Shown: one piece after another, positions 3,855 through 60,133 of the stretch | How the letters are laid out: each line of letters starts with the position of its first letter | Numbering within the stretch: position 1 is the first letter of the stretch | Source of the DNA: Neoarius graeffei | Lineage: Eukaryota > Chordata > Actinopteri > Siluriformes > Ariidae | DNA: 64,000 nucleotides | Direction: 5' to 3' | Assembly: GCF_027579695.1 (NCBI RefSeq) | Contig: NC_083590.1 | Span: 22,162,110 to 22,226,109 of the forward strand | Made by a program: the position numbers and the translations under genes | Notes under the pieces: model-generated | The model's database searches: none | What the model saw: the letters and a program-made list of their open reading frames with translations, nothing else | What the model was told of the DNA's origin: nothing

Positions 3855-4223
3855 ATCTCATCTCATTATCTCTAGCCGCTTTATCCTGTTCTACAGGGTC
3901 GCAGGCAAGCTGGAGCCTATCCCAGCTGACTACGGGCGAAAGGCGGGGTACACCCTGGACAAGTCGCCAGGTCATCACAGGGCTGACACATAGACACAGA
4001 CAACCATTCACATTCACACCTACGGTCAATTTAGAGTCACCAGTTAACCTAACCTGCATGTCTTTGGACTGTGGGGGAAACCGGAGCACCCGGAGGAAAC
4101 CCACGCGGACACGGGGAGAACATGCAAACTCCGCACAGAAAGGCCCTCGCCGGCCACGGGGCTCGAACCCGGACCTTCTTGCTGTGAGGCGACAGCGCTA
4201 ACCACTACACCACCATGCCGCCC
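3855..4223 (-). mobile_element. SINE of the main family, copy 2, set in a TATTA microsatellite
   Basis: Full-length copy in reverse orientation, with the tail at left (TCTCATCTCATTATC) and the tRNA-like head at right ending CACCATGCCGCC. TATTA pentamer repeats lie on both sides (about 3838-3855 and 4224-4284), so the target duplication is hidden within, or has grown into, the microsatellite. Confidence 0.92.
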
Positions 4224-4284
4224 ATATTATATTATATTATATTATATTATATTATATTATATTATATTATATTATATTATATTA
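4224..4284. repeat. (TATTA)n pentanucleotide microsatellite
   Basis: About twelve pentamer units directly abut the SINE head. The shorter run of the same phase on the other side suggests that the A/T-rich target duplication of the SINE was the seed of the expansion. Confidence 0.9.
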
Positions 4285-20353: not shown

Positions 20354-20728
20354 GGTGGCACGGTGGTGTAGTGATTAGCGCTGTCGCCTCACAGCAAGAA
20401 GGTCTGGGTTCGAGCCCCGTGGACGGCGAGGGCCTTTCTGTGCGGAGTTTGCATGTTCTCCCCGTGTCTGCGTGGGTTTCCTCCGGGTGCTCCGGTTTCC
20501 CCCACAGTCCAAAGACATGCAGGTTAGGTTAACTGGTGACTCTAAATTGAGCGTAGGTGTGAATGTGAGTGTGAATGGTTGTCTGTGTCTATGTGTCAGC
20601 CCTGTGATGACCTGGCGACTTGTCCAGGGTGTACCCCGCCTTTCGCCCGTAGTCAGCTGGGATAGGCTCCAGCTCGCCTGCGACCCTGTAGAACAGGATA
20701 AAGCGGCTAGAGATAATGAGATGAGATG
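20354..20728 (+). mobile_element. SINE of the main family, copy 4 (full length)
   Basis: Flanked by an exact 12-bp duplication AACCTTAAATCA at 20342-20353 and 20729-20740. The A-box and B-box are intact and the tail is AATGAGATGAGATG. A clean reference copy of the family. Confidence 0.95.
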
Positions 20729-21651: not shown

Positions 21652-22025
21652 CATCATCTCATTATCTGTAGCCGCTTTATCCTGTTCTACAGGGTCGCAG
21701 GCGAGCTGGAGCCTATCCCAGCTGACTACGGGCGAAAGGCGGGGTACACCCTGGACAAGTCGCCAGGTCATCACAGGGCTGACACATAGACACAGACAAC
21801 CATTCACACTCACATTCACACCTACGGTCAATTTAGAGTCACCAGTTAACCTAACCTGCATGTCTTTGGACTGTGGGGGAAACCGGAGCACCCGGAGGAA
21901 ACCCACGCGGACACGGGGAGAACATGCAAACTCCACACAGAAAGGCCCTCGCCGGCCACGGGGCTCGAACCCGGACCTTCTTGCTGTGAGGCGACAGCGC
22001 TAACCACTACACCACCGTGCCGCCC
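21652..22025 (-). mobile_element. SINE of the main family, copy 5
   Basis: Full-length reverse copy with duplication GCTGCTAATATT (21640-21651) and GCTGTTAATATT (22026-22037), one mismatch. Confidence 0.94.
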
Positions 22026-22474
22026 GCTGTTAATATTGACAAAAAAATTTTAATTAGATAAAAATCTGGATTTTATGGGTTGAAAATAACTCAGTGCCAT
22101 CTACTGGGTAAAATCATCCTGGACCTTTCAAGGCCGATGCTGATGTAGAGTCGACCAAAAGAACGTTAACGCCCTCTAACCAGAAGTGCATGTGTGCCCA
22201 CCTCTTCCAGCCCTCACCCGTGAGTGGGAATCTGTGAAACTGAGCTCATTTTCTGAGCAACTCCTACGTCGCACACCCACAGTTATGGTCTTATTGTTGA
22301 GGTGCCAACATTGCAAACAAACAAACAAAAAAAAAAACACCCTTGCAGGCACAGAGGAAGAAAAAGAAATTTACTGCAAAACCATGAGAAAAGCATTGGA
22401 AGTGTCCACTGCTTAATAATTAGCAGCCAATTTTTCGGGACTAAAAAAAAAAAAAAAAAAAAGAGATTCTTGTT
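22026..22474. other. dtnbp1 intron, nothing recognised
   Basis: Spacer between two SINEs, containing A-runs at 22328-22338 and 22443-22462. No other feature seen. Confidence 0.45.
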
Positions 22475-22842
22475 GGCGGCACGGTGGTGTAGTGGTTAGC
22501 GCTGTCGCCTCACAGCAAGAAGGTCCTGGGTTCGAGCCCCGTGGCCGGCGAGGGCCTTTCTGTGTGGAGTTTGCATGTTCTCCCCGTGTCCGCGTGGGTT
22601 TCCTCCGGGTGCTCCGGTTTCCCCCACAGTCCAAAGACATGCAGGTTAGGTTAACTGGTGACTCTAAATTGAGCGTAGGTGTGAATGTGAGTGTGAATGG
22701 TTGTCTGTGTCTATGTATCAGCCCTGTGATGACCTGGCGACTTGTCCAGGGTGTGCCCCGCCTTTCGCCCGTAGTCAGCTGGGATAGGCTCCAGCTTGCC
22801 TGCGACCCTGTAGAAGGATAAAGCGGCTAGAGATAATGAGAT
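22475..22842 (+). mobile_element. SINE of the main family, copy 6
   Basis: Full-length forward copy with exact 12-bp duplication GAGATTCTTGTT at 22463-22474 and 22843-22854. It lies just after an A-run. Confidence 0.95.
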
Positions 22843-23030
22843 GAGATTCTTGTTTTACATTTGTTTTATCTTGGATCACTAAACCAAAGCTTATGAATTC
22901 ATATGAAGAAGTTCATGCAAAGTAAATATAACCACAAGCGGAAGAAAATGTATCTTTCATGTTGAATGTCCTTTCCCCTTCTGTGAATCAGTTTTACTGC
23001 TCTGAGACCTGATCTTGAATTGATAGTTGT

Positions 23031-26350: not shown

Positions 26351-27000
26351 AAAGTCCAGGAGGAAGCGTTCTCTAAAGGTAACTTGTTGAGCAGTGAGAT
26401 TTTTTTCCATGTCAGTGTTGAAGCAACACATTATCTCAAGTAAATAAAGTCATTCGTGAGCTGCACAGTGATTTATGCGTATCCAGGAACCAGTGTGGAA
26501 TGAACTGACAGTTTTTCATCGAAATGCTTGTTTGTATTGTACTGGGTGTGAAAGCCAGCTCACGTGTTCAGCTCTTCCACAGCACTTAATAAATAAACAT
26601 TTCTGATGGTGTAAGAAGAATGTAACACTTCAGGATGTACTGTTATCGGAAAACAATTGACTCTGGGATGGTAAAAGAAACGGCGCTTCGTGTCAGGCAG
26701 CATCTGTGAGAGAATTTTGTCCCTAGCTTGTGGTTTTAAGCTTCAGAATGTGTTAAGATTCCCGTCTCTGGAGGCAACAAAAGGTGTGAACATCTCAGTC
26801 TCTGTAGCCACAGTTATCTTTTTGATCCACTGTTGACTAGTTTAGAAAGACTGCTCCCCCATTTCAATATTTTATGGGCCTCACACCTCCAGTCATACAC
26901 TGGGGGGACACACACACACAAACTGTTTTAGCTTGCTACAATTATTTTTGGGATATTGGTGAAATTGTGTTATTTAGCATGAATTTATGATTTTTATACT
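26351..27000. other. dtnbp1 intron, nothing recognised
   Basis: 650 bp without recognisable exon, repeat end or RNA gene. Confidence 0.5.
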
Positions 27001-27376
27001 CATCTCATCTCATTATCTCTAGCCGCTTTATCCTGTTCTACAGGGTCGCAGGCAAGCTGGAGCCTATCCCAGCTGACTACGGGCGAAAGGCGGGGTACAC
27101 CCTGGACAAGTCGCCAGGTCATCACAGGGCTGCACATAGACACAGACAACCATTCACACTCACATTCACACCTACGCTCAATTTAGAGTCACCAGTTAAC
27201 CTAACCTGCATGTCTTTGGACTGTGGGGGAAACCGGAGCACCCGGAGGAAACCCACGCGGACACGGGGAGAACATGCAAACTCCGCACAGAAAGGCCCTC
27301 GCCGGCCACGGGGCTCGAACCCGGACCTTCTTGCTGTGAGGCAACAGTGCTAACCACTACACCACTGTGCCGCCCT
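27001..27376 (-). mobile_element. SINE of the main family, copy 9
   Basis: Full-length reverse copy with tail CTCATCTCATCTCATTATC. It is directly followed by a fragment of a more diverged relative and then another copy. Confidence 0.9.
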
Positions 27377-27471
27377 AATTTAGATTACCAATTAGCCTAA
27401 CCTGCATGTCTTTGGACTGTGCGGGAAACCGGAGCAACTGGATGAAACCCGTGCGGAGAACATGCAAACTC
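27377..27471 (-). mobile_element. Fragment of a diverged SINE of the same family
   Basis: About 95 bp matching the middle of the SINE (AACCTGCATGTCTTTGGACT) but with older changes (GCAACTGGATGAAACCC). Probably the remainder of an older SINE into which the neighbouring copies inserted. Confidence 0.7.
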
Positions 27472-31101: not shown

Positions 31102-31257
31102 TATGAGTGTGTTATACTGCCCTGTGATGATAAATGTTAGCTGGCTCCATGTGTGACCAATCTGGTGCTCGATTGAAATATTTTTTTCAGGCAATGCTCC
31201 TGGTTCTATCCTAAATTTATCCAGCACCAGGTTGAAATAATTTTCTCTGAGAGTTTT

Positions 31258-31631
31258 CATCTCATCTCATCTCATTATCTCTAGCCGCTTTATCCTGTTC
31301 TACAGGGTCGCAGGCAAGCTGGAGCCTATCCCAGCTGACTACGGGCGAAAGGCGGGGTACACCCTGGACAAGTCGCCAGGTCATCACAGGGCTGACACAT
31401 AGACACAGACAACCATTCACGCTCACATTCACACCTACGCTCAATTTAGAGTCACCAGTTAACCTAACCTGCATGTCTTTGGACTGTGGGGGAAACCGGA
31501 GCACCCGGAGGAAACCCACGCGGACAACATGCAAACTCTGCACAGAAAGGCCCTCGCCGGCCACGGGGCTCGAACCCGGACCTTCTTGCTGTGAGGCGAC
31601 AGCGCTAACCACTACACCACCGTGCCGCCCG
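31258..31631 (-). mobile_element. SINE of the main family, copy 11
   Basis: Full-length reverse copy except a 10-bp deletion near CGCGGACAACATG. Exact 12-bp duplication TCTGAGAGTTTT at 31246-31257 and 31632-31643. Confidence 0.94.
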
Positions 31632-31714
31632 TCTGAGAGTTTTTATTAGCAAAAATACACAGAAATGATTATCCATCTTCCCTTCTGAGTGCAAAATGGC
31701 TCAATATTTGAGCT

Positions 31715-35399: not shown

Positions 35400-36475
35400 A
35401 CTAAATGACTGCTGAAAAACTCCTGAACAACTCTGGACTGACTCTCTGTATGACTCATGACTGAGTTCTGAATAACTCCAGACTGACTTCTAACCGAGTC
35501 CTAAATAACTATGGATTGACTCCTGAATGACTTGTGAATGACTTCTGACCAAGTCCTGAATGACTCTGAACTGACTCCTGAATAACTTCTGACAATGGAA
35601 AGTCTCCTGTCAGACTCCTGCTTGACCTCTGAATGACTCTGGACTGACTTCAGAACGACTCCTGACTGACTCCTGAATGATTCTTTACTGACTGCTGAAT
35701 GACTCTGGACTGACTAATGAATGACTCCTTACTGACTGCTGAATGACTCTGGACTGACTAATGAATGACTCCTTACTGACTGCTGAATGACTCTGGACTG
35801 ATTCCTAAACGACTTCTTACTGACTCCTGAATGACTCTGGACTGATTCCTGAATGACTCCTTACTGACTGCTGAACAACTCTGGACTGATTCCTGAATGA
35901 CTCCTTACTGACTGCTGAATGACTCTGGACTGACTAATGAATGACTCCTTACTGACTCCTGAATGACTCTGGACTGATTCATGAATGACTCCTTACTGAC
36001 TCCTGAATGACTCCCTTACTGACTGCTGAACGACTCTGGACTGACTAATGAATGACTCCTTACTGACTGCTGAATGACTCTGGACTGATTCCTGAATGAC
36101 TCCTTACTGACTCCTGAATGACTCCCTTACTGACTGCTGAACGACTCTGGACTGACTAATGAATGACTCCTTACTGACTGCTGAATGACTCTGGACTGAT
36201 TCCTGAATGACTCCTTACTGACTCCTGAATGACTCTGGACTGATTCCTGAATGACTCCTTACTGACTCCTGAATGACTCCCTTACTGACTGCTGAACGAC
36301 TCTGGACTGACTCCTGAATGACTCCTTACTGACTGCTGAACGACTCTGGACTGATTCCTGAATGACTCCTTACTGACTGCTGAACAACTCTGGACTGACT
36401 CCTGAATGACTCCTGACTGACTGCTGAACGACTCTGGACTGATTCTTGAGTGGCTCCTTACTGACTCCTGAATGC
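35400..36475. repeat. Minisatellite with 11-bp subunit and 44-bp higher-order unit
   Basis: The subunit is of type GACTCCTGAAT. The main array (35640-36470) repeats a 44-bp block containing CTGAATGACTCTGGACTGA and TGAATGACTCCTTACTGAC about 18 times, with occasional extra subunits such as CTCCCTTACTGACTGCTGAAC. The left 240 bp are a less regular array of the same 11-mers. The shadow frame on the - strand is only the 33-bp/11-residue reading of the repeat. Confidence 0.93.
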
Positions 36476-39035: not shown

Positions 39036-39960
39036 AGAAACATCGGATTGTTTAATAGCCTGGTTGTGCAGAAACTCACCGCTGTCAAATGTGACAAAGC
39101 CGTGATCATTGAGTGTGTGAGCCGACAATCAAAGCCTTCTCTGGATCTGATACACAACACTCGCTGTGTCAGAAGCGCCAAAAAGGTTATAAAGGACATC
39201 ACTCACCCCACACATCACTTATTTAAGCTCCTCCCATCAGGCAGGCGCTTCAGATCTATACGCATGCGTACTAACAGACTTAAAAATTATTTCCTTCCAA
39301 CTACAATAACTCTGAGATCTCCACAGTCTGAGATATGACATGTGCAATACATTGTTTTTCTATTCAATCCATAACCTGTACATATTGCTTGATTTACATA
39401 TCGTTTCTCATCTCATTATCTGTAGCCGCTTTATCCTGTTCTACAGGGTCGCAGGCAAGCTGGAGCCTATCCCAGCTGACTACGGGCGAAAGGCGGGGTA
39501 CACCCTGGACAAGTCGCCAGGTCATCACAGGGCTGACACACAGACACAGACAACCATTCACACTCACATTCACACCTACGGTCAATTTAGAGTCACCAGT
39601 TAACCTAACCTGCATGTCTTTGGACTGTGGGGGAAACCAGAGCACCCGGAGGAAACCCACGCGGACACGGGGAGAACATGCAAACTCCACACAGAAAGGC
39701 CCTCGCCGGCCCCGGGGCTCGAACCCGGACCTTCTTGCTGTGAGGCGACAGCGCTAACCACTACACCACCGTGCCGCCCATGTTCATTTTGTATATATTA
39801 TATTTATTACTTATCACCTTTCTTAGCTCTCAGGTATTTACTAAGGATGTTTTTTTTTTTTTGTCTTAATATTTTGGACCTTTGGGACCAGCACAAAAGA
39901 AATTTAATTGTGCCTTAATAATGACAAAGTGCTTGAACTTGAACTTGATTGATTAATTTT
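39036..39960 (+). mobile_element. LINE 3' end (CR1/L2/Rex1-like), split by a SINE
   Basis: The frame up to the stop at 39336-39338 reads KVIKDITHPTHHLFKLLPSG, then RRFRSIRMRTNRLKNYFLPT, which is the usual C-terminus of fish jockey/CR1-group ORF2. The 3'UTR continues after the SINE (39409-39779) to CAAAGTGCTTGAACTTGAAC. It is truncated at left against Tc1 element B. Confidence 0.75.
39409..39779 (-). mobile_element. SINE of the main family, copy 12
   Basis: Full-length reverse copy with intact A- and B-boxes, inserted in the LINE 3'UTR. The target duplication is not clear. Confidence 0.92.
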
Positions 39961-41382: not shown

Positions 41383-41614
41383 TACAGCTTTGGAAAAAAT
41401 TAAGAGACCACTGCAAACTTATCAGTTTCTCTGGTTTTACTATTTATATGTCCGTGTTTGAGGAGCATCAACATTTTTGTTTTATTCCATAACTTACTGA
41501 CAACATTTCCCACAAATTCCACATAAATATATTGCCACTTAAAGCATTTAATTGCAGAAAATGACAACTGGCCAAAATAACAAAAAAGATGAAGTGCTTT
41601 CAGACCTTGAATAT

Positions 41615-41983
41615 CTCATCTCATTATCTCTAGCCGCTTTATCCTGTTCTACAGGGTCGCAGGCAAGCTGGAGCCTATCCCAGCTGACTACGGGCGAAAG
41701 GCGGGGTACACCCTGGACAAGTCGCCAGGTCATCACAGGGCTAACATAGAGACACAGACAACCATTCACACTCACACCTACGGTCAATTTAGAGTCACCA
41801 GTTAACCTAAACTGCATGTCTTTGGACTGTGGGGGAAACCGGAGCACCCGGAGGAAACCCACGCGGACACGGGGAGAACATGCAAACTCCACACAGAAAG
41901 GCCCTCGCCGGCCCTGGGGCTCGAACCCAGGACCTTCTTGCTGTGAGGCGACAGCGCTAACCACTACACCACCGTGCCGCCCC
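41615..41983 (-). mobile_element. SINE of the main family, copy 13
   Basis: Reverse copy with exact 12-bp duplication GACCTTGAATAT at 41603-41614 and 41984-41995. Confidence 0.95.
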
Positions 41984-44180: not shown

Positions 44181-45031
44181 CCCAGTAATTCCAGTACTGC
44201 ATGGTACCAAGATCCCGTCCTAAATGATACCCTAATTTCTGTGTTCCTCATCGAAGTCCAAACTTTAATGAGGCTTCAAGATCCAGACTTACGATGCACA
44301 AAGCCAAAAGGGTGCAGGACGTACCATGACACATCACACACCATGATACAACGTGGTGTTTTTTATTCATTTATAGTTGGGTTTAAAGTAAACTAAAACA
44401 GTTAGTTCCTGTTATCCTATCAGCACATAGTAGCAGCTATAAACATGTAAGAAATCACGTTATTATTAGTTATAGTAGTAGTCATAGTAGTAGATGATCA
44501 TCCATGTATGTCATGGCGCTTTGAAATTAAAACTAGTCCTTCCTGTAAAACCATCAGCTTCTCAAGATTAAAGCAAGAGGTGTGAAATGTCCAAAACACA
44601 GAAATTACCTGAATCTGTGTCTAAATGCATCCTGGTGTTGTCATGCAGTGTGAATCAGCTCGTTACAATGTCTGTAGTGTCTGTTTGGAAGAATCCAGAC
44701 TATCCCGTGTGTGTGTGTCTGCTGTTTTGCCAGTTGCAAGGTTATGATATTTTCTGCTATAGTAGAAAACCTCCTGTCTCTTAGAACAATGTGGTTTTCA
44801 TCGAAACCGTGTGCGTGGGTGTGTGCAGGGTGGGCTCATGTGTTGATCTGCACTTCCTGTGCTGTATACGGGTGAGCTATGTGAGCCGATGGACAAAAAA
44901 AGATGCGTTCATACAGAAAGAACCACCTACAGGAAAAACTATTCATAGCTCTGGATCATCAACAACAAAAAAAAATCAAATGAGAAAAAAAAAAACAGGC
45001 TTTCAGTCCGGTGCGTGGTACAATTCAGTTT
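44181..45031. other. dtnbp1 intron, nothing recognised
   Basis: No exon or repeat end seen, apart from short A-runs at 44966-44974 and 44987-44996. Confidence 0.5.
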
Positions 45032-45108
45032 ACTAAGTTTTCTCATTTCATTTCTCTTCTCTTCTCTTCTCTTCTCTTCTCTTCTCTTCTCTTCTCTTCT
45101 CATTCCGC

Positions 45109-46649
45109 TTATCCGGGGCTGGGTCGCGGAGGCAGCAGTCTGAGCATGGAAGCCCAAACTTCCCTCTCCCCAGACATCTCGGCCATCTCCTCGGGAAGAA
45201 CACCGAGGCGTTCCCAGGCCAGCCAAGAGACATAGTCCCTCCAGCATGTCCTGGGTCTTCCCTGGTGCCTCCTCCTGTGTGGACATGCCTGGAACACCTC
45301 CCCAGGGAGGCGTCCAGGAGGCATCCGAAAGAGATGCCTGAGCCACCTCAGCTGATTCCTCTCGATGTGGAGGAGCAGCGGCTCTACTCTGAGCTCCTCC
45401 CGAGTGACTGTGCTTCTCACTCTAAGGGAGCGCCCAGCCACCCTGCAAAAGAAACTCATTTTGGCCGCTTGTATCCGCGATCTTGTTCTTTCGGTCATTA
45501 CCCAAAGCTCATGACCATAGGTGAGAGTCAGAACGTAGATTGACCGGTAAATCGAGAGCCTCACCTTTTGGCTCAGCTCCTTCACCACGACAGACCGGTA
45601 AAGCGACCGCATCACTGCGGAGGCTGCACCAATCCGCCTGTCGATATCACACTCCATCCTTCCCTCATTCGTGAACAAGATCCCGAGATACTTAAACTCC
45701 TCCACTTGAGGCAGGACTTCTCCACCAACCTGAAGAGGGCAAGCCACCCTTTTCCAGTCGAGAACCATGGCCTCGGACTTGGAGGTGCTGATTCTCATTC
45801 CAGCCACTTCACACTCGACTGCAAACCGCCCCAGTGCATGCTGAAGGTCCTGGTTTGAAGAAGCCAACAGGACAACATCATCCACAAAAAGCAGAGATGA
45901 AATCCTGTGGTTCCCAAACAGGATTCCCTCCAGCCCCTGGCTGCACCTAGAAATTCTGTCCATAAAAATTATGAACAGAACTGGTGATAAAAGGGCAGCC
46001 CTGCCAGAGTCCAACATGCACTGGGAACAGGTCTGACTTACTGCCGGCAATGCGAACCAGACTTCTGCTCTGTTTGTGCAGGGACCGGACAGCCCTTAGC
46101 AAAGAGCCCCGAACCCCATACTCCCGAAGCACCCCCCCACAGGATACCATGAGGGACACGGTCAAATGCCTTCTCCAGATCCACAAAGCACATGTGGACT
46201 GGTTGGGCAAACTCCCATGAACCCTCAAGCACCCTATGAAGGGTATAGAGCTGGTCCAGTGTTCCATGACCAGGACGAAAACCGCATTGTTCCTCCTGGA
46301 TCCACAGTTTGACTATTGGCCAAATTCTCCTCTCCAGTACCCTGGAGTAAACCTTCCTGGGGAGGCTGAGAAGTGTGATTCCCCTATAATTGGAGCACAC
46401 TCTCCGGTCCCCTTTCTTAAAAAGAAGGACCACCACCCCAGTCTGCCACTCCAAAGGCACTGTCCCCAACCGCCATGCGATGTTGCAGAGGTGTGTCAGC
46501 CAAGACAGCACCACAACATCCAGAGACTTGAGATACTCAGGGTGGATCTCATCCACCCCCAGTGCCTTGCCACCAAGGAGCTTGCAAACCACCTCAGTGA
46601 CTTTGGCTTGTGTAATGGATGAGTCCACCTCTGAGTCATCAGTCTCCAC
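45109..46649 (-). pseudogene. LINE reverse transcriptase and C-terminal region, frameshifted
   Basis: The - strand frames 46649-46038 and 46050-45109 carry the finger region (KALGVDEIHPEYLK, NYRGITLLS), motif A CFVDLEKAFDRVPHG, and motif C SLLFVDDVVLLA with both catalytic Asp. They continue into the thumb (EFKYLGILFTNEG, ALTYGHELW-like) and the conserved end RPRTCWRDYVSWLAWERLGV. A frameshift lies near 46045. Not functional as it stands. Confidence 0.9.
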
Positions 46650-46703
46650 TTCCTCAATGGGAGACGTGACAGTGGGATTGAGGAGATCCTCGAAGTATTC
46701 CTT

Positions 46704-47429
46704 TCACCGCCTGATAATATCACCAGTCAAGGTCAACAGCTCCCCACCCGCACTGTAAACAGTGTTGGCAGGGTACTGCTTCCCCCTCCTGAGGCGCTGG
46801 ACGGTTTGCCAGAATTTCCTCGAGGCCAACCGATAGTCCTCCTCCATGGCCTCACCGAACTCCTCCCAGTTCTGAGTTTTTGCCTCCGCAACTGCCCAAG
46901 CTGCAGCACACCTGGCCTGCTGATACCCGTCAGCTGCCTCAGGATTCCCGAAGGCCAACATGGCCTGATAGGACTCCTTCTTCAGCTTAATGGCATCCCT
47001 TACTTCTGGTGTCCACCACCGGGTTCGGGGATTGCCGCCACAACAGGCACTGGAGACCTTGCGGCCACAGCTCCGAACAGCCACATTGACAATGGAGGCA
47101 GAGAACATGGTCCACTCAGACTCGATGTCCTCCGCCTCCCTCGGAAGCTGGGAGAAGCTCTCCCAGAGGTGGGAGTTAAAGACCTCCCTGACAGAGTGCT
47201 CGTCCAGACGTTCCCAGCAGACCCTCACCATACATTTGGGCCTGCCAGGTCTGTCCAGATTCCTCCTCCGCCAGCGGATCCAACACACCACCAGGTCATG
47301 ATCAGTTGACAGCTCAGCCCCTCTCTTCACCCGACAGGTGTGAACAACACATAGGGCCAGAGATCCGATGAAACGACAACAAAGTCGATCATCAACCTTC
47401 GACCTAAGGTGTCCTGGTGCCACCTGCAC
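46704..47429 (-). pseudogene. LINE ORF2 linker between endonuclease and reverse transcriptase
   Basis: The - strand frame begins with the end of the endonuclease domain (STDHDLVVCWIRW) and continues through a helical, Trp/Arg-rich linker (TRWWTPEVRDAIKLKKESYQ). It is offset by frameshifts from both neighbours. Confidence 0.82.
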
Positions 47430-47992
47430 TTATGGACACCCCTATGCTTGAACATGGTGTTCGTTATGGACAAACCATGACTAGCACAGAAGTCCAATAA
47501 CAAAGCACCACTCAGGTTCAGATCGGGGAGGCCATTCCTCCCAATCATGCCCCTCCAGGTGTCACTGTTGTTGCCCACGTGAGCATTAAAGTCCCCCAGT
47601 AGAACAATGGAGTCCCCAGTCTGAGCACCTCTCGGTACCTCTCCCAGGGACTCCAAGAAGGCCGGATACTCTATACTGCTATTCGGCCCGTAGACACAAA
47701 CTACAGCAAGAGCCCTCTCCCCGACCCGAAGGCGCAGAGAAGCGACCCTCTCATTCACTGGGGTAAACTCCAACACATGGCGGCTAAGCTGGGGAACTAT
47801 AAGCAAGCTCACACCAGCCCGCCGCTGCTCACCGTGGGCGACTCCAGAGAAGTGGAGAGTCCAGCCCCTCTTGAGGAGCTGGGTTCTGGAGCCCAAACTG
47901 TGCGTGGAGGTGAGCCTGACTATCTCTAGCAGGTACCTCTCAACTTCCCGCACAAGCTCAGGCTCTTTCTCCCCAGTGACTAGAACCCCTCC
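47327..47992 (-). pseudogene. LINE APE-type endonuclease domain
   Basis: The - strand frame reads [43 protein letters not shown], then [13 protein letters not shown] (metal-binding Asp and Asn) and [10 protein letters not shown]. These are APE endonuclease motifs that nick the target for target-primed reverse transcription. The N-terminal GIWNVT of the same domain is found on the opposite strand at 48459-48476, beyond the inversion point. Confidence 0.88.
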
Positions 47993-47999
47993 TAGAACT

Positions 48000-48473
48000 G
48001 CCACCTTATTGTGGTGGAGGGGTTTGTGTGCTTGAATGATCCTAGGAACTATGTTGTCGGGGGCATTATGCCCCTGTTAGGGTTTCCCAAGGCAGACAGG
48101 TCCTAGGTGGCAGGCCAGACCAAGAGCAGTTCACCAAACCCCCTTATGGAAATGAAAAAAATCAAGGACTGTGACATCACCCGGTATGGCGCAGCCGGGG
48201 CCCCACCCTGGAGCCAGGCCTGGGGTTGGGGCTCGTATGCGAGCGCCTGGTGGCCGGGCCTTTGCCCACAGGGCCCGGCTGGGCTCAGCCCGAAGTGGTG
48301 ACGTGGGCCCGACCTCCTGTGGGCTCACCACCCACAGAGGTAGCCGTAGGGGGCCGGTGCAGTGTGGATTGGGCGGCAGTCGAAGGCAAGGGCCTCAACG
48401 ACCTAGTCGAAGGCAAGGGCCTCAACGACCTGATCCCCAAACACAGCAGCTAGCTGTTGGGATATGGAATGTC
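48000..48473 (+). mobile_element. Inverted 5' segment of the LINE
   Basis: It starts GCCACCTTATTGTGGTGGAG, the usual 5' end of this LINE type, and runs through GC-rich 5'UTR (a 24-bp direct duplication at 48382-48429) to TTGGGATATGGAATGTCAC, the beginning of the endonuclease frame. It ends precisely at the target duplication. The - strand body resumes just after this point of the element (TCACTGGGGAGAAAGAGCC), so almost nothing was lost at the inversion. Confidence 0.9.
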
Positions 48474-48485
48474 ACTAAGTTTTCT

Positions 48486-49257
48486 GTCAAAGTTAAATCA
48501 GGAATTGTTAAATCTATACTTACAATCGGTATATCAGGTGAAACTTCACATTCAACCTAAATTGCTTGAAACTGCTGTCATTGAATTCAGAAGTGAATGC
48601 TAAATAACATACTTTTTACAGAATTAAAACATGTTTATCCGTTCTTGAGATATTACAAATCAAAGATTGAAGAAACGGCTTCATTTTTATTAAACTGCCG
48701 TAATATTCTGTATGAGGATCACATGGTCCAAAATGGGCCTCGTTAACCAATGAGATCAAATGTTTTTTCTGAATAACTTTTCTATTTTTTCAAGATACTG
48801 AAAGGCAAAGTTTGAAAAATTACTAAAACAAAACAATTATGGAAAGTAGTATTTAATTAGTATTAATTATGCTAATTTGATACAAACGTTAAATCGGTAC
48901 ACTCAATAAAAAAGTAATACATTATTTCTAATCCCCTCTTTGTGCTCTCTAGGCCTTTGTATTTCTCAAAAGTAGTGCCTGCTAGTGTTTATATGAAAGA
49001 ATATAAATGATAATATTCACAGCTTTCAAGGCAAATCTCAAAAAAACTCTCTGAGCCACATCCAATAAACAATTCACATTAACTGAGCTGAAATTGACAC
49101 TTGCGTTTCTGACTTCCAGGTTTTTAAAATTTCATTCTGACCACTAAGAACTCAATTTTTTTCATCAAAACCACTTCAGGTATATTCTAAAATAGTAATT
49201 TATTTACATAAATTGGTTTGATTTGAAAAAATAAGTAGGTAAAGCTGTGAAAACTGA
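48486..49257. other. dtnbp1 intron, nothing recognised
   Basis: AT-rich sequence, possibly an old repeat, but without visible termini or coding potential. Confidence 0.45.
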
Positions 49258-50795: not shown

Positions 50796-50807
50796 ACTGT
50801 TTAATAT

Positions 50808-51181
50808 CTCTCTCTCATTATCTGTAGCCGCTTTATCCTGTTCTACAGGGTCGCAGGCAACCTGGAGCCTATCCCAGCTGACTACAGGCAAGAGGCGGGG
50901 TACACCCTGGACAAGTCGCCAGGTCATCACAGGGCTGACACATAGACACAGACAACCATTCACACTCACATTCACACCTACAGTCAATTTAGAGTCACCA
51001 GTTAACCTAACCTGCATGTCTTTGGACTGTGGGGGAAACCGGAGCACCCGGAGGAAACCCACGCGGACACGGGGAGAACATGCAAACTCCACACAGAAAG
51101 GCCCTCACCGGCACGGGGCTCAAACCCGGACCTTCTTGCTGTGAGGCGACAGCGCTAACCACTACACCACCGTGCCGCCCC
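50808..51181 (-). mobile_element. SINE of the main family, copy 14
   Basis: Reverse copy with exact 12-bp duplication ACTGTTTAATAT at 50796-50807 and 51182-51193. The right-hand duplication runs straight into a pentanucleotide microsatellite. Confidence 0.95.
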
Positions 51182-51185
51182 ACTG

Positions 51186-51243
51186 TTTAATATAATATAA
51201 TATAATATAATATAATATAATATAATATAATATAATATAATAT
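51186..51243. repeat. (ATAAT)n microsatellite seeded at a SINE target duplication
   Basis: About eleven pentamers continue the TTTAATAT of the target duplication. The next SINE copy interrupts the array. Confidence 0.92.
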
Positions 51244-57914: not shown

Positions 57915-59517
57915 TACAGTGGTGCTTGAAAGTTTGTGAACCCTTTAGAATTTTCTAGATTTCTGCATAAATATGACCTAAAACATCATCAGATTTTCAC
58001 ACAAGTCCTAAAAGTAGATAAAGAGAACCAAGTTAAATAAATGAGACAAAAATATTATATTTGGTAATTTATTTATTCAGGAAAATGATCCAATATTACA
58101 TATCTGTGAGTGGCAAAAGTATGTGAACCTCTAGGATTAGCAGTTAATTTGAAGGTGAAATTAGAGTCAGGTGTTTTCAATCAATGGGATGACAATCAGG
58201 TGTGAGTGGGCACCCTGTTTTATTTAAAGAACAGGGATCTATCAAAGTCTGATCTTCTCAACACATGTTTGTGGAAGTGTATCATGGCACGAACAAAGGA
58301 GATTTCTGAGGACCTCAGAAAAAGCGTTGTTGATGCTCATCAGGCTGGAAAAGGTTACAAAACCATCTCTAAAGAGTTTAGACTCCACCAATCCACAGTC
58401 AGACAGATTGTGTACAAATGGAGGAAATTCAAGACCATTGTTACCCTCCCCAGGAGTGGTTTACCAACAAAGATCACTCCAAGAGCAAGGCGTGTAATAG
58501 TCGGCGAGGTCGCAAAGGACCCCAGGGTAACTTCTAAGCAACTGAAGGCCTCTATCACATTGGCTAATGTTAATGTTCATGAGTCCACCATCAGGAGAAC
58601 ACTGAACAACAATGGTGTGCATGGCAGGGTTGCAAGGTGAAAGCCACTGCTCTCCAAAAAGAACATTGCTGCTCGTCTGCAGTTTGCTAAAGATCACATG
58701 AACAAGCCAGAAGGCTATTGGAAAAATGTTTTGTGGACGGGTGAGACCAAAATAGAACTTTTTGGTTTAAATGAGAAGTGTTCTGTTTGGAGAAAGGAAA
58801 ACACTGCATTCCAGCATAAGAACCTTATCCCATCTGTGAAACATGGTGGTGGGAGTGTCATGGTTTGGGCCTGTTTTGCCGCATCTGGGCCAGGACGGCT
58901 TGCCATCATTGATGGAACAATGAATTCTGAATTACACCAGCGAATTATAAAGGAAAACGTCAGAACATCTGTCCATGAACTGAATCTCAAGAGAAGGTGA
59001 GTCATGCAGCAAGACAACGACCCGAAGCACACAAGTCGTTCTACCAAAGAATGGTATAAGAAGAATAAAGTTAATGTTTTGGAATGGCCAAGTCAAAGTC
59101 CTGACCTTAATCCAATGGAAATGTTGTGGAAGAACCTGAAGCGAGCAGTTCCTGTGAAGAAACCAACCAACATCCCAGAGTTGAAGCTGTTCTGTATGGA
59201 GGAATGGGCTAAAATTCCCCCAAGGACTGATCAACAGTTACCGGAAATGTTTAGTTACAGTTATTGCTGCACAAGGGGGTCACACCAGATACTGAAAGCA
59301 AAGGTTCACATACTTTTGCCACTCACAGATATATAATATTGGATCATTTTCCTTAATAAATAAATGGCTAAGTATAATATTTTTGTCTCATTTGTTTAAC
59401 TGGGTTCTATTTATCTACTTTTAGGACTTGTGTGAAAATCTGATGATGTTTTAGGTCATATTTATGCAGAAATATAGAAATTTCTAAAGGGTTCACAAAC
59501 TTTCAAGCACCACTGTA
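57915..59517 (+). mobile_element. Tc1-like element D with terminal inverted repeats of about 210 bp
   Basis: TACAGTGGTGCTTGAAAGTT at left and its inverse at right, with TA borders. The inverted similarity extends to AGTGGCAAAAGTATGTGAAC (left, about 58110) and GTTCACATACTTTTGCCACT (right, about 59304): the long inverted-repeat/direct-repeat architecture known from Sleeping Beauty-like elements. Confidence 0.95.
58284..59295 (+). pseudogene. Tc1 transposase of element D, nearly intact
   Basis: One frame from ATG 58284 (MARTKEISEDLRKSVVDAHQ), interrupted by TGA at 58638-58640 and TGA at 58998-59000, both explained by single transitions. There is a one-base shift near 59240 before the usual end at 59293-59295. 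The paired helix-turn-helix N-terminus is complete. The first catalytic site reads WTGETK, so Asp is replaced by Gly. The second, QQDNDPKHT, and SPDLNPME are intact (DD34E). Dead on three counts but young. Confidence 0.93.
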
Positions 59518-60133
59518 GTAGTGTGGGATATAGTAGTGGGGATATAGTAGTGGGGATATAGTAGTGTGGGGATATAGTAGTGTGGATATAGTAGTGGGGA
59601 TATAGTAGTGTGGGTATAGTAGTGGGGGATATAGTCGTGTGGGATATAGTAGTGGGGATATAGTAGTGGGGATATAGTAGTGTGGGTATAGTAGTGTGGA
59701 ATATAGTAGTGGGGATATAGTAGTGTGGGTATAGTAGTGTGGAATATAGTAGTGTGGGATATAGTAGTGTTGATATAGTAGTGTGGGATATAGTAGTGGG
59801 GGATATAGTAGTGTGGGATATAGTAGTGTGGGATATAGTAGTGTGGGTATAGTAGTGTTGATATAGTAGTGTGGGATATAGTAGTGTTGATGTAGTAGTG
59901 TGGGTATAGTAGTGGGGGATATAGTAGTGGGGATATAGTAGTGGGGATATAGTGGTGGGGATGGCTGTGCCAGGCTAGTAATCTCTACTACACAATGAGG
60001 CCTGCTGGTGGTCATATTTGTCTGTGTCATACAATTCTATGTTATATAGCTGACCCGACCCCGGCCCCCCATCACAGTCAGGAACGACAATGTGGCCCCC
60101 AGAGAAAAAAGTTTGGTGACCCCTGATTTATAG

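Follow-up and report, generated by a model that had tools for sequence, protein, structure and literature searches.

Structure of the LINE insertion

The window, the whole 64,000-nucleotide stretch of DNA analysed here, is C23:22162110-22226109, and it was compared with the rest of its own genome (2.34 Gb, 38 contigs). Between positions 45032 and 48485 of the window lies a LINE in two oppositely oriented pieces, the features of which are as follows.

45032-45043: one copy of the target-site duplication, adjoining the 3' end of the LINE, exact 12-mer ACTAAGTTTTCT
45044-47979, minus strand: LINE body, not inverted (first cDNA), extending from RNA nt 464 to the 3' tail, delimited by blastn against normal-order copies and by reading frames
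45052-45101, minus strand: 3' microsatellite tail, (GAGAA)10, with a TAA stop codon, GCG and GAA immediately ahead of it
45109-46703, minus strand: reverse-transcriptase and C-terminal coding region, PF00078 in two ORFs, with frame changes and stops
46429-46448, minus strand: site of the published Rex3 PCR primer RTX3-R3, 0/20 mismatches
47327-47979, minus strand: endonuclease coding region (PF03372), its 5' end lost to the inversion
47980-47985: inner joint, with as many as six additional bases (CTAGAA) that lie mostly beyond the family 5' end and have the letters of RNA nt 7-12
47986-48473, plus strand: inverted 5' segment (second cDNA), RNA nt 1 to 460, delimited by comparison with family copies
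48378-48431, plus strand: 27-bp tandem duplication within the 5' untranslated region
48474-48485: second copy of the target-site duplication, adjoining the outer end of the inverted segment, exact 12-mer ACTAAGTTTTCT

The sequence-only reading had described a minus-strand body and an oppositely oriented 5' segment as parts of one LINE, split beside the start of the endonuclease frame and bracketed by one 12-bp duplication, and this description holds. The two pieces match a single RNA, on which their ends are adjacent at nt 463/464; the PF03372 region is cut at its 5' end, and the family sequence directly ahead of it lies, in the window copy, in the inverted segment; and the 12-mer is found, without mismatch, at both outer borders. 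As a check on chance, any common 12-mer was shared by 18 of 19,736 pairs of random 42-bp stretches from the window, a figure inflated by the repeat richness of this DNA. The inner boundary, which had been placed at about 48000, also exists, and comparison with normal-order copies moves it to 47979/47986.

Pfam searches matched consecutive minus-strand ORFs of the body to PF03372 (7e-06) and PF00078 (3.3e-12 and 2.7e-11). The window copy is dead, since its coding is spread across three frames with stops. Further, the 27-bp tandem duplication is probably older than the inversion, because its motif occurs twice in the normal-order copy L003 as well.

The element fits a Rex3-like LINE, in agreement with the earlier suggestion of a fish LINE of another clade than L1; the excerpted text of the paper from which the RTX3-R3 sequence was taken (PMC3728117) relates Rex3 to the RTE family. 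With teleost Rex3 it has in common an endonuclease and a reverse transcriptase, an identical RTX3-R3 site, short target duplications (in this family variable, about 9-13 bp as longest exact matches) and the order of stop codon, GCG and GAA repeats given for the Rex3 3' end (PMC6274825, in excerpt). The window reads TAA GCG GAA, with one GAA instead of two, and another copy, L033, has two GAA repeats but GCA instead of GCG. Unlike in teleost Rex3, the tail is (GAGAA)n in the window and (GATGA)n in L033, variants of the published GATG unit rather than GATG itself, and the 5' segment of the window copy is inverted; we therefore use the wording "Rex3-like" on account of the tail unit. The genome is probably that of a teleost, judging by how abundant this Rex3-like LINE is in it. 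The second published primer, RTX3-F3, has 6/21 mismatches when placed ungapped at 45983, where the window holds one extra A. Among PDB matches of the LINE protein, L1 ORF2p came first (2.8e-08), followed by R2 proteins. No member of the family was found in viral_contigs, genome_contigs, plasmids or phages (the latter two by tblastn). One match at 36% identity in a record labelled as a bacterial plasmid (H1/L001, NZ_CP104070.1) is a LINE-type reverse transcriptase, uninformative on the 5' end, and was set aside; it is probably eukaryotic contamination or a mislabelled clone.

The LINE 5' end in the window (47986-48065) folds to a stem in which the first seven bases are paired (7 bp, CCCCUCC/GGAGGGG). 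An HDV-like ribozyme was considered at this place: Rfam gave no match there and, up to E 10, only a chance-level match elsewhere in the segment. The window further holds at least ten copies of a 370-440 bp repeat, with about 92-98% identity in the rows listed (734-1141, 3856-4254, 20354-20724, 21654-22038, 22475-22847, 27000-27382, 31254-31645, 39406-39809, 41612-41982 and 50802-51243), at least two of which are followed by ATATT-type repeats; this short element is young and very dense. At 35404-36474 and 59516-59962 there are long minisatellites, built of 44-bp/11-bp and 14-bp units.

Normal order of the family and the breakpoints

A search of the genome with window positions 47900-48485 as the query, in which 40 of 3749 candidates were scored, gave 30 places (L002-L031, with L002 being the window itself). 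The segment is followed by the body on one strand in 27 of these 30 loci, from which we conclude that the orientation of the 5' segment in the window is not the natural one for the family; a consensus that carries it in the window orientation was thus not what the genome contains. Among the 27, L007 proves to be inverted itself, with a longer inverted piece. L022 carries about 245 bp between segment and body, inserted within the LINE at the GACATGGAATGTC stretch and with GACATGGAATGTC on both sides, that is, a second insertion event at the same place. Of the other loci, L005 is inverted and L004 has the segment without a body in the stretch retrieved. L004 (C22:21624286-21624747) is a 5'-only copy that ends at RNA nt 462, in the stretch where inverted pieces start, and has CACCT on both sides. 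The normal order was also seen in copies not selected by similarity to the window, 44 of 50 of which have segment then body on one strand, although L072, one of the 44, is itself inverted.

Around the breakpoint the majority of 26 copies reads ...GGGACATGGAATGTCAC (nt 446-462) TTCGCTGG (463-470)..., and the window segment differs from this majority at 15 of 462 sites, or at 5 of 408 outside CpG. In the window the segment runs from nt 1 (47986) to nt 460 (48473) and the body resumes at nt 464 (47979). The three bases after 48473, ACT, are common to the target duplication and RNA nt 461-463, so that they constitute a 3-nt microhomology between target end and RNA at the start of the inverted piece; family copies read GTCAC-TTCGC at the place corresponding to 48474. 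When ACT is counted as RNA-derived, the pieces abut at nt 463/464, with nothing lost and nothing repeated at the inversion; otherwise 3 nt are lost.

The inverted piece reaches the family 5' end, which is CCCCTCC..., preceded by A or AA in a minority of copies. Ahead of it, at the inner joint, stands CTAGAA, of which the terminal A or AA may be part of the 5' end itself, as it is in some copies. When other 5' ends were aligned to the stretch starting at 47980, 28 of 29 began at position 5 or later, and L019 began at position 2. CTAGAA may be copied filler, since this hexamer is also found just within the 5' end. At the 5' ends of two other loci, the first ~25 element bases occur a second time, as a head-to-tail repeat in L015 and inverted in L026, and these extra copies look like filler copied at the end of reverse transcription.

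Inverted copies elsewhere in the genome

The sequence-only reading had called for a search of the genome for further inverted copies, and such copies were found. The exact 29-base 5' end occurs 2317 times genome-wide (1163 + 1154). As a sample we took 80 of the first 100 listed 5' ends, all on contig C1, 50 of them with long flanks and 30 with 100 bases upstream. Antisense body lay directly ahead of the 5' end in 6 of the 80 (L033, L039, L072, L075, L086 and L088), a count that covers copies with intact 5' ends, so that inverted pieces short of the RNA 5' end are left out, and from which inverted copies with very short bodies would escape. A more sensitive search returned the identical six. 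Three of the 80, L109-L111 (C1:102920487, 103581402 and 103748596), share nearly the same 50-bp upstream flank, the mark of a local duplication carrying the copy, and the independent total is thus ~78 rather than 80. Together with the three inverted copies among the 30 window-selected loci (the window, L005 and L007), nine inverted copies are known. L005 was considered as a duplicate of the window locus and rejected: the right flank of the window has no match to L005, and the breakpoints differ.

Target duplications around the whole insertion were confirmed in five of the nine, the count leaving out L005, L072, L086 and L088, in which the 3' end falls outside the sequence at hand. As longest exact matches they measure 12 bp in the window, 13 in L033, 12 in L039, 13 in L075 and 11 in L007, and 1-3 of the terminal bases may be part of the tail (the final two or three in L033 and L075). 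By reading, the microhomology at the target side is 1 nt in L033, L039 and L075, compared with 3 nt in the window. L033, L039, L075 and L088 also lack a large middle portion of the element. Large internal deletions were also seen in two non-inverted copies, L038 (C1:9967614) and L066 (C1:35333600-35338600), in which the 5' part is joined to the 3' part in the same orientation and which are flanked by target duplications measuring at least 9 and 13 bp; they perhaps arose by template jumping or from spliced RNA.

We noted that the inverted pieces tend to start at one place on the RNA. The starts, each uncertain by 1-3 nt owing to shared bases, are nt 451 (L075), 453 (L039), 457 (L088), 462 (L033), 463 (window) and 467 (L005), with outliers at about 672 (L086), 708 (L072) and 1330 (L007); nt 451-467 therefore holds six of the nine. 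The window was chosen by the reader and L005 picked by its similarity to the window, and neither is independent support for the cluster. Among the six unselected copies, four starts fall within 12 nt; a uniform draw gives such clustering somewhere in 2.1e-4 of trials over 700 nt and in 3.1e-3 over 300 nt, with the 12-nt width picked after inspection of the data.

The first cDNAs end at nt 464 in the window and at body nt about 2461 in L033, 1806 in L039, 1645 in L075 and 2460 in L088, and because these ends are widely scattered, they do not explain the cluster of starts. Four of the nine copies have their two cDNA ends no more than about 20 nt apart (window 0, L005 overlap ~12, L072 gap 12-17, L086 overlap ~5). 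We also counted joints genome-wide as exact patterns of antisense body beside the 5' end, the places not being inspected individually. A joint of the window type turned up at 2 places, namely in the window and in L005. Seven places, with six different fillers, carry the joint at body nt about 2450-2460, and 8 carry one near body nt 2686, a 3'-proximal control; four mid-body control joints gave 0 each. These counts indicate that inverted copies are spread over many contigs and that synthesis of the first cDNA often ended early. The shared stop of L033 and L088 at body nt ~2460, with 7 places for that joint, raised the idea of a hot spot at which first cDNAs terminate; the 8 places of the control led us to reject it in favor of many short first cDNAs, and we claim no preferred stop.

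Twin priming as the probable mechanism, its alternatives and known systems

Twin priming is the mechanism that Ostertag and Kazazian reportedly put forward in 2001 for 5'-inverted L1 insertions. We consider that the window copy arose in a single twin-primed retrotransposition of a Rex3-like LINE RNA, with a probability of roughly 0.93. The endonuclease would nick the strand ending ...AAGTTTTCT-3', and a first cDNA would be copied from the RNA tail up to nt 464. A second nick would fall 12 bp away, and the target end ...CTTAGT-3' would pair over 3 bp with that RNA at nt 461-463 and prime a second cDNA running to the RNA 5' end. The two cDNAs would then be joined with up to six filler bases, and repair would yield the 12-bp duplication. 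While this order of nicks and priming is what we infer, the observed structure, the normal order of the family, the breakpoints and the single duplication support the interpretation, which the sequence-only reading had already offered.

Four lines of evidence favor twin priming. First, there is a single exact 12-bp duplication, and the outer end of the inverted segment falls exactly on it. Second, both pieces belong to one RNA with adjacent ends, and the inverted piece extends to the family 5' end. Third, the normal order prevails in the family, including in L003, which shares the 27-bp repeat of the window. Fourth, independent inverted copies (L033, L039, L075 and L007) have duplications of their own. 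Against it, the target-side microhomology (3 nt in the window, 1 nt in L033, L039 and L075) is short, against 2-5 bp in about 70% of L1 inversions, and the simplest model does not account for the additional bases at the inner joint. Further, a 324-nt query of the joined flanks gave no match across the site in the own genome (40 scored of 2140 candidates), which need not contain an empty site, and matched only the two halves of the window and a dispersed repeat beginning near 48528. Joining the endonuclease translation across both pieces likewise brought no Pfam gain (PF03372 26.8 bits alone and 26.5 joined), and the PDB comparison behaved in the same way.

The clustered starts bear on an alternative in which the template of the inverted piece was a shorter 5' RNA fragment (nt 1 to about 451-467), copied from its 3' end after end-to-end template joining at the target. 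It would account for the cluster in six of the nine inverted copies, for the very short microhomology and for L004, the 5'-only copy; however, three of the nine (L072, L086 and L007) start elsewhere, and in four of the nine (window, L005, L072 and L086) the cDNA ends are so close as to point to one shared RNA. We regard this origin as unlikely. Less likely still is a normal-order insertion followed by an unrelated DNA rearrangement that turned its 5' part around. Such an event would produce the same order of pieces, and inversions are known in repeats, but its breakpoint must have hit the boundary of element and duplication by chance, and repeatedly so (window, L033, L039, L075 and L007); moreover, none of the 10 inverted-repeat pairs listed in 44500-49000 connects the two joints, and four of the inverted copies (L033, L039, L075 and L088) also miss the large middle part. 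Two separate insertions, a 5'-only LINE fragment beside a 5'-truncated copy, deserve almost no credence: 5'-only fragments may exist, as L004 stops at RNA nt 462 with other DNA beyond, but here one duplication surrounds both pieces, the repeat listing of the window has none between them, and they end at adjacent RNA nucleotides.

Within twin priming, a preferred second-priming site is a modest hint drawn from few events, and the sole part of the account that goes beyond the textbook. Regardless of how long the first cDNA is, second priming may be steered to one set stretch of the RNA, nt 451-467, close to where the 5' untranslated region gives way to the endonuclease frame; either a structured 5' untranslated RNA, held by the enzyme, would present this stretch to the second nick, or the RNA would be cut there. 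We offer this tentatively, at somewhat less than an even chance. In R2, the 5' untranslated RNA is structured and held by the enzyme. A preferred site would not be wholly without parallel, since L1 breakpoints show peaks (PMC12016303, in excerpt).

The comparison with L1 rests on excerpts of the sources. In human and chimpanzee L1, 639 of 2068 insertions are 5'-inverted, and of the inverted ones about 70% have 2-5 bp of microhomology, with none in only 28 of 605 (PMC2912911). The window copy and its relatives have in common with these an inverted 5' piece, one target duplication and short target-side microhomology. They differ in belonging to a Rex3-like LINE, in target duplications of about 9-13 bp compared with about 15 in L1, and in a second cDNA that reaches the RNA 5' end in the sampled copies, as the sampling demands. 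The inverted fractions, 6/80 among our intact-5'-end copies and 639/2068 in L1, have different denominators. The inversion in the window had been called near-lossless, which stands, at 0 or 3 nt, but this is commonplace, given that in 132 of 287 human L1 inversions the two breakpoints are at most 20 bp apart (PMC12016303), so that adjacent or slightly overlapping cDNA ends are found in about half of L1 cases and in four of nine here.

In cell culture, 5' inversions were seen only with L1 in human cells, a single Nimb-2_DR insert in DT40 being the exception. The authors argue that an overhang of about 5 nt may not be long enough for 5' inversion, and Nimb-2_DR duplications peak near 12 bp (PMC4245944, in excerpt). 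That zebrafish element in chicken DT40 cells resembles the present family, as far as the excerpt goes, in being a non-L1 fish LINE with a 5' inversion and a duplication peak at ~12 bp. It differs in being one cell-culture event in another species, whereas the copies described here are natural and lie in their genome of origin. No title on a 5' inversion of Rex3 was among the matches listed in the twin-priming literature for Rex3, RTE and fish LINEs, a search mostly outside subscription papers. The mechanism is thus an ordinary one, cleanly shown in a LINE family for which we encountered no such report.

Twin priming has been studied mainly in L1, and the genome examined here offers several natural inverted copies of one Rex3-like family. 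Their duplications of about 9-13 bp fit the proposal that overhangs longer than about 5 nt are needed (PMC4245944, in excerpt). If the clustered start of the inverted pieces is true, it would be a direct handle on how the LINE RNA is placed at the second nick.
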